From positions 1,956,001-2,020,000 of the forward strand of contig NZ_CP132910.1 in the NCBI RefSeq assembly GCF_030846775.1: a stretch of DNA of 64,000 nt, written 5' to 3'. This document shows positions 2,188 to 60,190 of this stretch, in pieces. Made by a program: the position numbers and the translations under genes. Below the pieces are notes generated by a model. It saw only the letters and a program-made list of their open reading frames with translations, was not told the DNA's origin and did not search any database. Source of the stretch: Geothrix sp. 21YS21S-2. Lineage in GTDB: Bacteria > Acidobacteriota > Holophagae > Holophagales > Holophagaceae. Position 1 is the first letter of the stretch. Each line of letters starts with the position of its first letter.

Positions 2188-4302
2188 ATGATCCTCCCGA
2201 CGATCCTTCTCGCCGGCGCCCTGTCGGCCCAGGCCTCCGGCCCCCGGACGCACTTCGTCAGGCAGGTCCTCCAGAACGCGGCGCGGCGCTCCGCCTGGGT
2301 CCTGGTGGCCCGGGAGCGGGACCTGGCCCCGGACCCGTGGCGGCTGGACGAGACCTTCCTGAGGCTCCAGGAGGACAAGGACCTCTCCGTCTTCGCGGCG
2401 CCCCCGTCCCCGGCCGTGCTGATGTGGGACCACTGGAGCCGTTCCTCCGAGGCGCGATGCCTGCTGGTGAGCCGGGACTTCAGGACGATCCTCGAGTTCC
2501 GGGGGCTGCCTTCCGGCGAGGCCCTGCTCGCGGCGATGACGGCGGGAGGCTACCGCACCGTGCGGGTGCGCCGGGAGGCCTTCCTGAAGGAGTTCCCCGA
2601 CCACGGGGAGGCGCTGGACGAGAAGCTGGGCTCGGCCCTGGGCGTCCTGGGGGCGCGCCTGCGCCTGTCCCAGGCCCTGACGGAGCCCGAGGCGGACCGG
2701 ATGTACCAGGAGACCGCCGACACCCTGGACCAGCTCCTCAAGCTTCCGGACTGGTGGCGGCTCTCCCGCATGCCGGACCTGGCCCGGGCCCTGGAGGAGG
2801 GTCAGGCGGGACGCTCCCCTCGCATGCGAGGCATCATGACCGGCCTGCGGGAGGCCGCCCGGGAGCGCTGGGCCCGCTCCCCGGCCTCGGGCAGCGCCCG
2901 GGAGGGGGCCTTGTGGATCGCCCTGGAGCGCGGGCTGGAGGAGGACCGGGTGGGTATCCTGCCCGACCTGGTCCCGCCGCCGGGGGAGACCTGGCCCAGC
3001 CGCCTCGAGGTCAACCTCCTGGTGCGCAGGCCCTGGATGCGCAAGGAGTGGAGAGGCGTGGCGGCCTTCCTGGAGGACCTGCCCGAGGTCATCCCGGGCC
3101 GGGCCGCGGGGCCCGGGGACTGGCGGCGCTTCGTGGAACTGCAGGTCCACGTGCGGCTCCTGCTGGCGGTGGCCTATGGCAAGCAGCTTCTCTGGGAGAA
3201 CGCCGACGCGGCGGCCCTGGAGTGCCGCCGGTGGGCGGGAGGCTCCTGGCCCGCGGCCGCGCAGGCCCTGCTGGACGCCTTCGCCATGGAGCCCTTGCCC
3301 CGCAGCTTCTCCGGCATCCTGGGGCTGGATGCCCTCCCCGACTGGCCCATCCCGGTGCGGGAGGAGCCTCTGCGCCTGGTCCGCAAGGGACCGCCCCTGA
3401 AGCCTGCGCAGGACGCCGCGCTCCGCGGCGACCCCGCCTTCCTCCTCTGGGGGCCCCGGGAACTCCGCTGGGGCATGGCTTCGCCCCGGGAGGCGGAAAT
3501 CATGGGGCAGAGCGCCTGGGGGGCCTTCCGGGGCGCCACGACCCTCCTCGCCGCCTGGGAGGATCCGGCGCGTCCCGGCGCGATGGGCCATACCCTCGAG
3601 GCCCTGGACACGCCACGGCTGGCCTGGCTCAACCCCTTCATCCGCCGGGACCCCATCCACCTGGACGCCCGCCGGAAGCGGTTCCGCATCCTGCGGGACC
3701 GCATGCCCTCCCCCGGGCTGGAACCCGCCCTCGCCGCCGACGCCACGGCGGCGTTCCTGGAGGTGGAGACCGGCGAGGGCGGCTGGCGCCCGGATACCGC
3801 CGCCTGGGCCGCGCCCCTCGCCGCCGCCATGCCCGAACTGGAGGCCGCCCTGCGCCGGTGGCCAAGCTCCGCCGGGCTCTGGGAGACCTGGATCTCCTGG
3901 GCCCGGCTGTGCCCGGACCGGCCCTCCGCCTACGCCTTCGCCCGGACGATGCCCGCCGCCGAGCCCCGTTCCCGGTGGCTTTGCCTCCTGCCGGAGAAGG
4001 TCCACCGGGCCGTGGCCCGGGAGCTCCTGGAGGCGCACCGCGACGTGGAGTGCCGCGGCTGGTTCCAGGAATGCTGGGAGGGGCTGAAGCTCGTGGCCGA
4101 CGACCTTCCGGTGCGCATCACCTCCGCCCAGGTGGACCTCGTCTTCCCCTTCCTCAAGGCCGCCGGGGAGGACGGCACGGAACTGGCGAGGGAGCGCGAC
4201 GCCCTCCTGGCGAGCATCCCCGCCCCGCGCCCACCCTCGGCGGAACCCGCGCCCGGCGCCTTCGCGGCGCTCACGGACCTGCGGGTTCCGGGGCGGAAGT
4301 GA
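2188..4302 (+). CDS. Secreted protein of unknown function (704 aa)
   Basis: I do not recognise a family. The predicted protein starts with a short hydrophobic signal-like stretch (MILPTILLAGALSAQA), so it is probably exported. The rest is rich in Leu, Arg, Trp and Glu, looks mostly helical, and has no catalytic motif that I can identify. The open frame continues upstream to 1756 across the MerR gene, but the ATG at 2188 gives a signal peptide and avoids that overlap. It is co-directional with the regulator (32 bases after its stop) and could be read through from it, but nothing links it to metals. Its stop codon is one base from the stop of the convergent S9 peptidase gene. Confidence 0.75.
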   Translation: MILPTILLAGALSAQASGPRTHFVRQVLQNAARRSAWVLVARERDLAPDPWRLDETFLRLQEDKDLSVFAAPPSPAVLMWDHWSRSSEARCLLVSRDFRTILEFRGLPSGEALLAAMTAGGYRTVRVRREAFLKEFPDHGEALDEKLGSALGVLGARLRLSQALTEPEADRMYQETADTLDQLLKLPDWWRLSRMPDLARALEEGQAGRSPRMRGIMTGLREAARERWARSPASGSAREGALWIALERGLEEDRVGILPDLVPPPGETWPSRLEVNLLVRRPWMRKEWRGVAAFLEDLPEVIPGRAAGPGDWRRFVELQVHVRLLLAVAYGKQLLWENADAAALECRRWAGGSWPAAAQALLDAFAMEPLPRSFSGILGLDALPDWPIPVREEPLRLVRKGPPLKPAQDAALRGDPAFLLWGPRELRWGMASPREAEIMGQSAWGAFRGATTLLAAWEDPARPGAMGHTLEALDTPRLAWLNPFIRRDPIHLDARRKRFRILRDRMPSPGLEPALAADATAAFLEVETGEGGWRPDTAAWAAPLAAAMPELEAALRRWPSSAGLWETWISWARLCPDRPSAYAFARTMPAAEPRSRWLCLLPEKVHRAVARELLEAHRDVECRGWFQECWEGLKLVADDLPVRITSAQVDLVFPFLKAAGEDGTELARERDALLASIPAPRPPSAEPAPGAFAALTDLRVPGRK

Positions 4303-43395: not shown

Positions 43396-43400
43396 CAGAT

Positions 43401-43548
43401 CTTTTCTCGGCGAACCTCGGCGCCTCGGCCACCTCGGCGATAAATTCTGTTTCAAGACGCTGCGGCGCGATGAATTTTTGCGCCGAAGCAGTCTGGAAAA
43501 GAAAAGTATCGCCGAGGTGGCCGAGGCGCCGAGGTTCGCCGAGAAAAG
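43401..43548. repeat. Dispersed repeat copy 1: perfect 42-bp inverted arms around a 64-base core
   Basis: Arms 43401-43442 and 43507-43548 are exact reverse complements. Within each arm a CTCGGCG/CTCGGCC heptamer occurs four times. The core has its own short GC stem (GGCGC/GCGCC). A second copy lies at 58425-58570 in inverted orientation; a 15-base stretch ATTCTGTTTCAAGAC is shared exactly by the two cores. Lies between the convergent larA homologue and HIT gene, six bases after the larA stop. Nothing protein-coding is supported in it. Confidence 0.93.
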
Positions 43549-43555
43549 AGGAAAG

Positions 43556-56469: not shown

Positions 56470-58200
56470 ATGGACAGGATTCTCAGGGTCAACCTGACCG
56501 ACCTCACCACCCGGATCGAGGAGACGCCCGGGGAGTGGGCGGGCCTGGGGGGCCGCGCCCTCACCTCCACCATCGTGGCCAGGGAGGTCCCCCCGGCCTG
56601 CCACCCCCTGGGCCCCAACAACAAGCTCGTCTTCGCCCCCGGCCTCCTCTCGGGCACGTCGGCCTCCAACTCGGGCCGCCTCTCCTGCGGGGCCAAGAGC
56701 CCGCTGACCGGCGGCATCAAGGAGAGCAACGTGGGCGGCACCGCGGCCCAGATGTTCGCGCGGCTCGGCATCAAGGCCCTGATCGTCGAGGGCATGCCCA
56801 AGGGCGCCGCGTGGTACGGCCTTCGGGTCACCAGGGACGGGGTGGCCATCCAGGAGGAGCGGGAGCTGGTCGGCAAGAACAACTTCGCGGTTCTGGAGGC
56901 CATCGAGGGCCGCCTCGGGAAGAAGGCCGGCGTGCTTTCCATCGGCACCGCCGGCGAGATGCGCGTGACGGCCGCCAACATCTCCGTCCGGGACCCCTCG
57001 GGCAAGCTCCGCAGCCACGGCCGCGGGGGCCTGGGCGCCGTCATGGGCTCCAAGCGCGTCAAGTTCATCACCATCGAGGACGAAGGCGCCCCCGGCATCC
57101 AGCTGGCCGATCCCGACAAGTTCAAGGCGGCCTCCCGCGTCTTCACCAAGGCCCTCATGGACCATCCCGTGAGCGGCACCGGCCTGCCCACCTACGGCAC
57201 CAACGTCCTGGTGAACATCCTGCACGAGGCGGGGGGCCTGCCCACCCGCAACTTCACCTCGGGCCGCTTCGACGGGCACGAGTCCATCTGCGGCGAGACC
57301 ATGCACGAAACCATCGTCGCCCGCGGCGGCAAGCCGCGCCACGGCTGCCATGCCGGCTGCGTCATCCAGTGCTCCCAGGTCTACAACGACAAGGACGGCA
57401 ACTACCTCACCTCCGGCTTCGAGTACGAGACCATCTGGGGCCTGGGCGCCAACTGCACCATCACCGACCTGGACGACATCGCGACGGCCGACAGCATCAT
57501 GGACGACCTGGGCATCGACTCCATCGAGACCGCGGTCGCCTTCGGCGTGGCCATGGAGGCCGGCATCCTCCCCTGGGGCGACGGCAAGGAGATGCTGCGC
57601 ATCCTCCGCGAGGAAGTGGGCCAGGGCACCGCCCTGGGCCGCGTCATCGCCTCGGGCGCGGGCGCCGTGGGCCGCACCTACGGCATCACCCGCGTCCCCG
57701 TGGTGAAGAACCAGGGCATCCCCGCCTACGACCCGCGCTCGGTCAAGGGCATCGGCATCACCTACGCCACCACCCCCATGGGCGCCGACCACACCGCCGG
57801 CTACACCATCGCCACCAACATCCTCAACGTGGGCGGCCAGGTGGATCCCCTCAAGAAGGACGGCCAGGTCGAGCTCAGCCGCAACCTGCAGATCGCCACC
57901 GCCGCCATCGACTCCACGGGCATGTGCATCTTCGTGGCCTTCCCCGCCCTGGACATCCCCGAGTGCCTGCCGGCCATGATCGACATGATCAACGCCCGGT
58001 ACGGCGCCGAGCTCACCGGCGACGACGTGGTGGCCCTGGGCAGGACCGTCCTCAAGACCGAGCGCGGCTTCAACATGGCCGCCGGCATGACCAGCGTCCA
58101 CGACCGGCTTCCCGAGTTCTTCCGCACCGATCCCGTCGCTCCGCACGACGCCGTGTGGGACTTCACCGACGAAGAGGTCGACGCGTTCTGGAACTTCTGA
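56470..58200 (+). CDS. aor: Aldehyde ferredoxin oxidoreductase (tungsten-type)
   Basis: 576-residue W/Mo-bis-pterin enzyme that oxidises aldehydes to acids with ferredoxin, or the reverse. The N-terminal pterin-binding segment (LVFAPGLLSGTSASNSGRLSCGAKSPLTGGIKESNVGG, about 53-90), the EYETIWGLGANC segment and the Fe4S4-binding Cys293, Cys297 and Cys301 are present, with a further Cys486 (GMCIF) as the probable fourth. The spacing here is CxxxCxxxC rather than the better-known CxxCxxxC. The ATG at 56470 is six bases after AAAGGGAGA; the open frame from 56245 is non-coding. Paired with a MoaD-like gene whose ATG overlaps its stop. Probable role: oxidising aldehydes from amino-acid breakdown. 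Confidence 0.92.
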   Translation: MDRILRVNLTDLTTRIEETPGEWAGLGGRALTSTIVAREVPPACHPLGPNNKLVFAPGLLSGTSASNSGRLSCGAKSPLTGGIKESNVGGTAAQMFARLGIKALIVEGMPKGAAWYGLRVTRDGVAIQEERELVGKNNFAVLEAIEGRLGKKAGVLSIGTAGEMRVTAANISVRDPSGKLRSHGRGGLGAVMGSKRVKFITIEDEGAPGIQLADPDKFKAASRVFTKALMDHPVSGTGLPTYGTNVLVNILHEAGGLPTRNFTSGRFDGHESICGETMHETIVARGGKPRHGCHAGCVIQCSQVYNDKDGNYLTSGFEYETIWGLGANCTITDLDDIATADSIMDDLGIDSIETAVAFGVAMEAGILPWGDGKEMLRILREEVGQGTALGRVIASGAGAVGRTYGITRVPVVKNQGIPAYDPRSVKGIGITYATTPMGADHTAGYTIATNILNVGGQVDPLKKDGQVELSRNLQIATAAIDSTGMCIFVAFPALDIPECLPAMIDMINARYGAELTGDDVVALGRTVLKTERGFNMAAGMTSVHDRLPEFFRTDPVAPHDAVWDFTDEEVDAFWNF

Positions 58201-58424
58201 TGATCGTCACCGTCAAGCTCTTCGCGCATTTCCGCAACGGCAGGTTCAAGGAGGCCGAGAAGGCCTTCCCGGATGGCGTGGACTGCCTCCACGTCATCCA
58301 GAGCCTCGAATTCACCGCCAGGGACATGGGGATCGTGATGGTGAACGGACTGCATGCCGCCCTGGACAGGCCCCTGGAGGACCGGGACATCCTGGCCCTG
58401 TTCCCCCTGGTCGGGGGCGGGTAG
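58200..58424 (+). CDS. MoaD/ThiS-like sulfur carrier, linked to AOR
   Basis: 74-residue ubiquitin-fold protein ending in VGGG, the terminal glycine motif that is activated to a thiocarboxylate. Such proteins provide the dithiolene sulfur of molybdopterin; small MoaD homologues are often fused or linked to AOR genes. ATG overlaps the AOR stop (TGATG), so it is translationally coupled. Too short for domain details beyond this. Confidence 0.82.
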   Translation: MIVTVKLFAHFRNGRFKEAEKAFPDGVDCLHVIQSLEFTARDMGIVMVNGLHAALDRPLEDRDILALFPLVGGG

Positions 58425-58570
58425 TTTCCTCGGCGAACCTCGGCCCCTCGGCCACCTCGGCGATGCCTTTCTATTCATGGATGCCGCGGCGCGAAGATCC
58501 ATTGCGCCGCACCGTCTTGAAACAGAATGCATCGCCGAGGTGGCCGAGGGGCCGAGGTTCGCCGAGGAAA
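58425..58570. repeat. Dispersed repeat copy 2: perfect 42-bp inverted arms around a 62-base core
   Basis: Arms 58425-58466 and 58529-58570 are exact reverse complements, and the copy is inverted relative to the element at 43401-43548. Arm differences from copy 1 (for example GGCGCC to GGCCCC, TTTTC to TTTCC) are matched by the complementary change in the opposite arm. The core holds a GCGGCGC/GCGCCGC stem. It begins at the stop codon of the MoaD-like gene and ends two bases before the stop codon of the convergent XRE-cupin gene. Confidence 0.93.
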
Positions 58571-58572
58571 AG

Positions 58573-59127
58573 CTAGGCCACGACGTTCAGGATGAAACTC
58601 AGGCTCCCCTTGCCCGTGTTGGCGAAGGCGTAGGGCGTGTCCGAGGGGAAGGCGATGGACTCGCCGGCCTTGAGCACCTGGGTCGCGCCGCCCTGCTCGA
58701 GGGTGAGTTCGCCCCGCACCACGTACACCATCTCCCGGTATCCCGGCAGGTCCGGCTCGCCCTGGTAGCGGTCCCCGGGCGCGATGGTCCACTTCCACAG
58801 CTCCACCGTGCGCTTCGCGGGAAAGCTCTGGAGCAGGTCCACCTTGGTGCCGGGGCTGCTGCCCTGCCAGAGCTGGACGCCCCGGTCGGGGTGGGGGGCC
58901 TCCTGGGCCGCGTTCACCAGCTCGGAGAAGGTCAGCTCGAACGCCGCGGCGATGTGGCCCAGGGTGGCCAGGCTCACGTTGCTCTCGCCGCTCTCGATCA
59001 TGCCGATCATGCGCCGGGAGAGCCCGGCGCGGTCGGCCAGCTCCTGCTGGCTCCACTTCAGGTCGTGCCGCTTTTTGACAATGTTCAGGGAGATGGGGAG
59101 GAAGAGTTTTCGCGGGTCGAAGGCCAT
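58573..59127 (-). CDS. XRE-family regulator with C-terminal cupin domain
   Basis: 184 residues. Helix-turn-helix about 13-70 (LKWSQQELADRAGLSRRMIGMIESGESNVSLATLGHIAAAFEL), then a cupin domain (about 95-180, with PGYREMVYVVRGELTLEQGGATQVLKAGESIAFPSDTPYAFAN) that would bind a small ligand. This layout is common for regulators of amino-acid catabolism. GAGG precedes the ATG at 59127. It is divergent from the ornithine operon, and a 31-base dyad in the shared control region is the expected operator. Confidence 0.9.
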   Translation of the reverse strand: MAFDPRKLFLPISLNIVKKRHDLKWSQQELADRAGLSRRMIGMIESGESNVSLATLGHIAAAFELTFSELVNAAQEAPHPDRGVQLWQGSSPGTKVDLLQSFPAKRTVELWKWTIAPGDRYQGEPDLPGYREMVYVVRGELTLEQGGATQVLKAGESIAFPSDTPYAFANTGKGSLSFILNVVA

Positions 59128-59143
59128 GGGAACCTCAAAGGGT

Positions 59144-59178
59144 AATATATTGCACATCCCAAAAATGCGCAATATACT
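59144..59178. promoter_or_regulatory. Operator with overlapping divergent promoters for XRE-cupin gene and ornithine operon
   Basis: Arms TATATTGCACAT (59146-59157) and ATGCGCAATATA (59165-59176) form a dyad with one mismatch and a 7-base spacer. On the plus strand TTGCAC (59150-59155), 17 bp, TATACT (59173-59178) is a good sigma-70 promoter for arcB. On the minus strand TTGCGC (59172-59167), 17 bp, TATATT (59149-59144) is an equally good promoter for the regulator gene. The two promoters lie on top of each other within the palindrome, so one bound repressor would shut both. Confidence 0.8.
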
Positions 59179-59203
59179 TGCCATGCCGAAAAGGAGAACA
59201 ACC

Positions 59204-60190
59204 ATGGCCGTCAACCTCAAGGGTCGCAGCTTCCTCAGCCTCATGGACTTCACCGTTGAGGAGGTGCGCTACCTCCTGGACCTCTCCCGGGACCTCAAGG
59301 CCAAGAAGCGCATGGGCATCTACAACTACCTCCTGAAGGGCAAGAACATCGTCCTGCTCTTCGAGAAGGCCTCCACCCGCACCCGCTGCGCCTTCGAGGT
59401 GGCGGCGCTGGAGGAGGGCGCCCACGTCACCTTCCTGGACAGCAACAGCTCCCAGATGGGCAAGAAGGAGTCCCTGGAGGACAGCGCCAAGGTCCTGGGC
59501 CGGTTCTTCGACGGCATCGAGTACCGCGGCTACAAGCAGGAAGTGGTGGAGAACCTGGCGAAGTTCTCCGGCGTGCCGGTCTGGAACGGCCTCACGGACG
59601 TCGACCACCCCACCCAGATCCTTGCCGACTTCCTCACCATCGAGGAGCACGTGGCCAAGCCCCTCAACAAGGTCAAGCTGGTGTTCGCCGGCGACATCCG
59701 CAACAACATGAGCTACGCCCTGATGTACGGCGCCGCCAAGACCGGCATGCACTTCGTCGGCCTCGGGCCCAAGGAGCTCTACCCCAGCCAGGAGATCCTG
59801 GACCGGGTGCGCGAAGTGGGCCGGCTCACCGGCGCCAAGATCGAGATCACCGACGACGTGAACGCCGTCGCGGGCGCCGACGTCATCTACACCGACGTGT
59901 GGGCCTCCATGGGCGAGGAGGACCAGATCCCCGAGCGCGTGCGCCTCCTGACCCCCTTCAAGGTCACAATGGACCTCGTGAAGAAGACGAACAACCCCGA
60001 CATGATCTTCCTGCACTGCCTGCCGGCCTTCCACGACTTCGAGACGAAGCTGGCCAAGGACATGATGGACAAGGGCTACGACATCCGCGAAGTGACCGAC
60101 GAGGTCTTCCGCAGCCACCACTCCAAGGCCTTCGACGAGGCGGAGAACCGGATGCACACCATCAAGGCCGTCATGGTCGCCACGCTGTAG
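59204..60190 (+). CDS. arcB: Ornithine carbamoyltransferase, probably catabolic
   Basis: 328 residues. Carbamoyl-phosphate site STRTR (57-61), HPTQ (135-138), the DVWASMG loop (about 231-237) and HCLP (271-274) are intact. The enzyme interconverts ornithine plus carbamoyl phosphate and citrulline plus phosphate. As the first gene of an ornithine-degradation operon it probably runs in the catabolic direction, giving ornithine and carbamoyl phosphate from citrulline. The sequence cannot itself tell ArcB from ArgF. AAGGAG precedes the ATG. Confidence 0.9.
   Translation: MAVNLKGRSFLSLMDFTVEEVRYLLDLSRDLKAKKRMGIYNYLLKGKNIVLLFEKASTRTRCAFEVAALEEGAHVTFLDSNSSQMGKKESLEDSAKVLGRFFDGIEYRGYKQEVVENLAKFSGVPVWNGLTDVDHPTQILADFLTIEEHVAKPLNKVKLVFAGDIRNNMSYALMYGAAKTGMHFVGLGPKELYPSQEILDRVREVGRLTGAKIEITDDVNAVAGADVIYTDVWASMGEEDQIPERVRLLTPFKVTMDLVKKTNNPDMIFLHCLPAFHDFETKLAKDMMDKGYDIREVTDEVFRSHHSKAFDEAENRMHTIKAVMVATL

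Follow-up and report, generated by a model that had tools for sequence, protein, structure and literature searches.

The window that we analysed, a stretch of 64,000 nucleotides from Geothrix sp. 21YS21S-2, contains a palindrome of about 146 bp that occupies the whole gap between two convergent stop codons. The upstream neighbour (58200..58424, forward strand) encodes a ThiS/MoaD-like protein (PF02597) and stands downstream of an aldehyde ferredoxin oxidoreductase gene; its TAG stop codon (58422-58424) abuts the palindrome. The downstream neighbour (58573..59127, reverse strand) encodes an HTH and cupin regulator (PF01381, PF07883), whose stop codon, read as CTA at 58573-58575, lies 2 nt off the other end. 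A repeat finder run on the window reported an inverted repeat with 45-nt arms at 58425-58469 and 58526-58570 that are 98% complementary. The outer 42 nt of these arms pair without mismatch, and a second run also gave a 42-nt arm. The 56-nt spacer (58470..58525) encodes no gene and holds an inner stem, CGGCGC at 58487-58492 and GCGCCG at 58504-58509. A second copy of the palindrome is found in the window at 43400..43549, also between convergent called ORFs, which lie 6 and 8 nt away.

Each arm is itself layered. Four heptamers start at 58429, 58439, 58447 and 58456 of the left arm (forward strand), with start-to-start steps of 10-8-9, and the same four are found on the opposite strand in the right arm, at 58533, 58542, 58550 and 58560. 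In the left arm, the order is CTCGGCG, CTCGGCC, CTCGGCC and CTCGGCG, separated by AAC, C and AC. These spacers of 3, 1 and 2 nt agree with a preliminary description of this DNA, which had each arm composed of four CTCGGCG or CTCGGCC units set 1-3 nt apart. Single heptamers are mildly enriched in the window (115 observed vs 72 expected under an order-1 Markov model). The array is strongly non-random: across both strands of the genome of 5,248,135 bases, the pattern CTCGGCS-N1-3-CTCGGCS-N1-3-CTCGGCS gave 31+34 matches, compared with 0+0 for the reversed pattern that served as a control. With 65 triplets against none, the spacing is not one that is merely as common as expected, which was the outcome that would have spoken against the preliminary description.

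That description also supposed that a single strand could pair in several registers. This is not what the predicted fold suggests, as the MFE and centroid structures of the element both consist of one full-length pairing register, in which the inner stem is paired as well. The fold has a predicted energy of -129 kcal/mol (z -17), and none of 200 shuffled sequences was equally stable. The proposal that the layout is unlike a simple terminator fared better: a scan allowing loops of 3-8 nt only found 0 terminator-like sites in 58150-59250 and, by eye, both strands leave the stem into GAAAAG or GAAAC, with no T-run. On these grounds we dropped an intrinsic terminator as a candidate. When the element was searched against Rfam, nothing scored above the gathering threshold, and the sub-threshold matches were mostly microRNA families falling on the palindrome.

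The window palindrome belongs to a family of palindromes, each about 146 bp long, that occurs across the genus and has spread by inserting into the gaps between genes, a dispersal that the preliminary description did not bring out. When its own genome was searched with the window element, 92 DNA matches were obtained, which group into 40 places (40 of 124 candidates scored). With a covariance model derived from 16 copies, 90 matches were found in that genome, on both strands, and 32, 16, 10, 6 and 4 in five further Geothrix genomes. Nearly all of the 16 aligned copies retain the inner stem. The preliminary description had called for a genome search for heptamer clusters outside the repeat; clusters are indeed abundant, but 29 of the 32 grouped triplet places turned out to be the same palindrome family, the remaining three being at genome positions 576468, 2166837 and 4091474. 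The ends of the copies bear no conserved GTAG/CGTC tag, and the GTAG next to the window copy takes in the neighbouring gene's stop codon. A search of the window element against plasmid records returned no match.

Copies in this genome are of three types: dispersed copies that resemble the one in the window, copies inside an IS630-like element, and copies inside an ISL3-like element. The inner stem (58487-58509 in the window; 3059-3081 in locus L033) is common to the dispersed and the IS630-borne palindromes, though their arms differ. Subtracting the nine places assigned to an insertion sequence (IS), a procedure by which single-copy ISs would go unnoticed, leaves 31 dispersed copies. Nineteen of these are between convergent genes, eight between tandem genes and two between divergent genes, while two lie inside a called ORF. 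The convergent share compares with 7 of 35 adjacent gene pairs in the window (binomial p 6e-7 at an expected 20%, 2e-5 at 25%); these contexts come from a home-made ORF caller, which missed the small ThiS-like gene of the window.

Comparison with relatives reveals what the junction looks like when the element is absent. Both flanks were present in two of the 40 relatives searched, G152 and G149. In the sister genome G152 the site is empty and the same two genes are 8 nt apart, so the element is dispensable there. At the level of sequence comparison, the window element was inserted into an intergenic gap. G149 has a different insert of 418 bp in the same gene junction (L143), with ends that look inverted by eye. 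Three further genomes (G151, G097 and G156) match on the regulator side only, with other sequence beyond, and stem-loops can be made out by eye in G151 and G156. No clear target-site duplication was seen at four empty sites, whose flanks have diverged: that of the window copy and those of three copies in another genome, G142. Changes in the two arms are coordinated. Among the 16 aligned copies, 11 of 48 pairs were altered on both sides in some copy, and in two copies (L027 and L028) the same 8-nt unit is missing from both arms.

The IS630-borne copies bring the palindrome next to a GxxExxY gene, of the family PF13366. In the IS630-like copies the palindrome is located between the transposase gene and this gene, and in the ISL3-like copies the arms are turned the opposite way about a short loop. 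Of 10 PF13366 matches in the genome, eight have a heptamer palindrome adjoining. All eight belong to copies of a single IS, which reduces the local association to one event. PF13366 is found in 55 of 149 genomes of the phylum, and there the fetched genes are mostly bracketed by inverted arrays, with repeated (A)ACCRCNGAG upstream and repeated CTYNGYG downstream. The ISL3-like copies have this cassette layout. The four units of each window arm correspond to the CTYNGYG type, except that two of the four are CTCGGCC and differ at the last base. As most cassettes read CRCNGAG on the left and CTYNGYG on the right, while CTCGGCG reads on the left arm in the window, the window copy is reversed relative to them.

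We assessed this bracketing in two sets of loci. In the phylum set, from which 4 of 30 loci cut by contig ends were left out, flanks aligned with a score of at least 40 in inverted orientation at 20 of 26 loci and in direct orientation at 4 of 26, compared with 0 of 52 shifted windows. The second set, of named loci, spans many bacterial phyla along with some archaea. Its loci were retrieved with patterns from eight GxxExxY proteins and are the best 80 of at least 590; five of the 80 were left out. At least three CRCNRAG units upstream together with at least three CTYNGYG units downstream were found at 53 of these 75 loci and in 1 of 252 control windows. The remaining 22 lack the full inverted layout, and the opposite layout occurs at 8 of the 75 loci (control windows, 0 of 252). 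Two archaeal loci (L179 and L239) are among the 53 and a third (L177) is not. When scored by alignment (at least 40), inverted flanks were present at 38 and direct flanks at 16 of the 75 loci, with 3 of 252 in control windows. The downstream array starts close to the gene, at a median of 10 nt past the stop codon (n=55 named loci). Direct repeats accompany some cassettes: at L064 a long direct repeat of host sequence (score 131) flanks the cassette, as though the beginning of the following gene had been copied, and direct repeats are also found at L079 (222) and L065 (77).

In a rank test, 19 loci had their own partner arm in first place among 53 and 30 had it within the top three; arm-specific matching is therefore real, though partial. 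Between nearest protein neighbours, the commonest heptamer is shared in 24 of 53 cases, compared with a shuffled mean of 12.0, a result that kinship could give too. Closer to the window, GxxExxY loci at the family level have inverted unit arrays in 18 of 20 cases by eye, the exceptions being L147 and L148, the latter one-sided. Most of the GxxExxY loci in G149 and G152 do not have CTYNGYG arrays on both sides. Three loci from sister genomes (L148, L310 and L311) carry a four-unit upstream array with the same 10-8-9 steps as the window arms. These arrays are the closest tie between the arm design of the window and a GxxExxY gene; no intact gene was found with the exact arm sequence of the window.

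We compared these loci with those of another small ORF, PF05635, the 23S rRNA intervening-sequence/four-helix-bundle protein, using a set of 26 loci (again 4 of 30 cut by contig ends were left out). At least four CTYNGYG units were present in the best-matched arms of 22 of 26 GxxExxY loci, and not a single unit was present in the matched arms of any of the 26 PF05635 loci. The PF05635 genes nonetheless have inverted flanks (score at least 40) at 18 of 26 loci, which are built of other 7-8-nt units; in these loci (L093-L122, all from other genomes) we saw arrays of GGGATCA, GGCAGTA, GTAGTCC and others. PF05635 genes with arrays of their own units look to be a parallel system. The genome of the window has 0 matches to PF05635.

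Palindrome and gene also co-occur across the phylum. At least five CTCTGYG pairs were found in 38 of the 55 genomes that encode GxxExxY vs 3 of the 94 that do not, counts that are not corrected for phylogeny and that follow one unit variant only. The three exceptions are among the 34 genomes that lack GxxExxY and encode PF05635; the variant reached this number in none of the 60 genomes lacking both and in 7 of the 15 encoding GxxExxY alone. Seventeen of the 55 GxxExxY genomes, including that of the window and G097, have fewer than five such pairs. The genome G150 has 32 covariance-model matches and no PF13366 match, in an assembly that is 81% complete. In a search of 72,556 plasmid records with one GxxExxY query, 8 matched, so spread by plasmids looks minor.

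A cassette inside an operon, together with gene-less relatives, is found in G142. Here an array-GxxExxY-array cassette is located between rpoB and rpoC, where the gap between anchors is 505 nt. The cassette is missing there from the 11 other genomes searched: the corresponding gap is 39-51 nt in nine of them and 89 and 99 nt in two, in which the anchors aligned further out. The arms of this cassette have many matches in G142 and one in 11 other genomes (25 candidates scored per genome). Twenty of the matching regions in G142 were fetched, and the repeat finder recovered 15 heptamer palindromes from them, two of these in L284; a sixteenth repeat, at L272, is unrelated. For two of the palindromes, each in a short intergenic gap, the site is empty in six of six relatives. 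Judged from these sequences, this genome has the element both with and without the gene, and the arms are shared between the two forms.

In G097, PF13366 gives 49 matches, mostly fragments. At the loci L322-L361 a GxxExxY cassette rides in an IS that encodes a DDE_Tnp_1 transposase; dozens of copies are present, and several different internal deletions affect their nuclease gene. The 40 fetched loci are copies of this IS, except for L353, which had no match, and 37 of the 40 extend over both arrays (L327, L352 and L353 do not). We had considered the deleted copies as miniature derivatives made by the nuclease, and we rejected this because an IS with its DDE transposase amplifies them; they do not, therefore, show mobilisation by GxxExxY.

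What might the GxxExxY protein do? It matches PF13366 (E 4e-44) and TIGR04256, for which the NCBIfam name is just "GxxExxY protein". An AlphaFold model, built with 23 hand-picked sequences from the named loci, reached a pLDDT of 95.6. Its best PDB match is 4ic1 (Z 9.5, 95 aligned residues, 3.4 A), SSO0001, a Cas4-type PD-(D/E)XK protein. Archaeal Holliday-junction resolvases matched with Z of 5.8 to 7.0; scores of 7 and less may reflect only the shared superfamily fold. A sequence search of the PDB found no homologue at E <= 1, and Foldseek alone gave no match at E <= 0.001. Residues D64, E74, K76 and Q88 are invariant in alignments of 24 and 23 sequences. In its modelled fold and its D...ExK active site, the protein has what is expected of a PD-(D/E)XK nuclease.

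Altogether, we favour, at somewhat better than even confidence, the interpretation that the window palindrome is a gene-less member of a mobile element linked to this nuclease. The element would belong to a class of inverted CTYNGYG arrays in which array, gene and inverted array make up a complete cassette; palindromes like that of the window would be non-autonomous, gene-less forms or pairs of arms. The small nuclease would recognise the heptamer array, probably in the hairpin or cruciform shape that a pair of inverted arrays adopts, and would cut there; repair could then place copies of the element at gene junctions or carry it from one junction to another. If one arm is copied from the other along the way, the arms would stay matched. 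That GxxExxY binds the arrays, that it cleaves them, and that it rather than another enzyme drives their spread are the steps we infer. Weighing against the interpretation are the reversed layout of the window copy, the failure to find an intact gene with its exact arms, the single event behind the local association, the named loci that lack the full inverted layout, the GxxExxY genomes poor in CTCTGYG pairs, and the model matches of G150 in a genome with no PF13366 match. A broader proposal, to which we give a little less than an even chance, is that arrays and a lone GxxExxY gene together form a self-sufficient mobile element of a previously undescribed kind in bacteria and archaea, which spreads through a hairpin or cruciform, sheds gene-less miniatures such as the window element, and has a parallel in the four-helix-bundle genes.

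Several of the same observations could be explained by selection on RNA. The hairpin might shield the 3' ends of both mRNAs or separate converging transcription, as a REP-like element does, in which case spread would be incidental. The excess of copies between convergent genes, the stability of the predicted hairpin, the compensatory changes in the arms and the stem-loops at the same junction in G151 and G156 would all fit. Nevertheless, we consider this unlikely, as the G152 junction does without any element in the 8 nt between its stop codons, no terminator-like site is present, a cassette of the class sits within the rpoB-rpoC operon, and the loss of one unit from both arms is easier to bring about by copying than by selection. 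A related idea, in which RNase III cuts the cassette from the transcript at the inverted arrays, as in an intervening sequence (IVS), while the DNA spreads by another route, strikes us as scarcely probable. The PF05635 family shares the cassette plan, excision of IVSs by RNase III is described in passages of PMC4990558, and one cassette sits in the rpoB-rpoC operon. Against it, the genome of the window has no PF05635 match, the units at PF05635 genes are wholly different from those at GxxExxY genes, and the window copy is gene-less and lies between convergent genes.

The other two explanations concern a different protein partner. DDE insertion sequences are accompanied by MITEs, gene-less inverted-repeat elements that exist beside longer, gene-bearing ones, and the palindromes could be passengers of this kind, moved by IS630-, ISL3- or other DDE transposases with GxxExxY as cargo. 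The palindromes riding in IS630-like and ISL3-like elements here, and the arrays riding in the DDE_Tnp_1 IS of G097, are what such a mode of spread would produce. We nevertheless think it improbable, because the arrays are internal to the IS630-like and ISL3-like elements rather than terminal, only 9 of the 40 places can be assigned to an IS (single-copy ISs would not show), and the arrays close on GxxExxY genes in many phyla. The preliminary description saw in the array a site along which a dimeric or oligomeric protein could bind, and suggested nucleoid proteins; a proposal of 2009 for Geobacter metallireducens likewise invoked a global regulator. Binding of a protein along the array is plausible. 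Its regular run of near-identical units agrees with a regulator site, as do the paired sites in passages of PMC2700814, one class of which has the unit TCTCCGTS and was read as sites for a global regulator or IHF/HU. We hold this explanation to be very improbable for the window element: the IHF consensus was found in none of the 40 copies, searched with 20 nt of flank at either end, a count that says nothing on HU, the arrays follow one nuclease gene family, and the copies favour gene ends. The genomic context points to the GxxExxY nuclease rather than nucleoid proteins as the likely partner of the array, and the interpretation offered in the preliminary description is, overall, partly supported.

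Many genomes of the phylum surveyed here have heptamer-array palindromes between their genes, and the window element on its own is of a known sort, the dispersed intergenic palindrome. In our literature search no title or abstract opening linked GxxExxY or PDDEXK_3 to repeats, no published origin of heptamer-array palindromes was found, and a search by sequence strings gave nothing relevant among the matches listed. Multicopy palindromes and direct repeats have been described in intergenic regions of G. bemidjiensis (in passages of PMC2996986). In Geobacter metallireducens, Aklujkar et al. (2009, PMC2700814) described paired tandem-repeat sites whose units include TCTCCGTS. These resemble the palindromes in being multicopy inverted pairs of tandem 7-8-nt units with a variable spacer, and their class 2 unit, TCTCCGTS, fits CTYNGYG. 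They differ in having been interpreted as regulator or IHF/HU sites, and the main-text passages of that paper make no link to a GxxExxY gene.

Set beside the MITEs of DDE insertion sequences, the palindromes differ in that their arms do not coincide with the termini of the IS630-like and ISL3-like elements, and no clear target-site duplication was seen in flanks that have diverged. The IVSs treated in passages of PMC4990558 likewise consist of a small ORF between stem-forming inverted ends in transcribed regions, but with another protein (S23/four-helix-bundle), other units, and rRNA as their site. A RAYT/Y1 transposase was rejected as a partner of the palindromes, as none of the five Y1_Tnp loci in the genome of the window has heptamer triplets or arrays. 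Of the Y1 transposase copies there, L059, L060 and L061 contain one in-frame TAG each and L058 is open. The REP elements with their tyrosine transposases are the nearest functional analogue. Like the palindromes, REP/REPIN-RAYT systems comprise short multicopy intergenic palindromes, for which mobilisation in trans by a repeat-flanked gene is proposed in passages of PMC3733652. REPs are 20-40 bp long with GTAG/CGTC tags, and a Y1 HUH enzyme acts on those with GTAG (same passages of PMC3733652); the elements described here are about 146 bp, tagless and composed of heptamer arrays, with a PD-(D/E)XK nuclease as candidate partner. The tie between palindrome and GxxExxY would give each a role, the protein as a small nuclease and the palindrome as the DNA on which it acts. 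If the link is causal, it would represent a new kind of mobile system, a nuclease-based counterpart that stands beside REPIN/RAYT and accounts for the origin of many intergenic palindromes.
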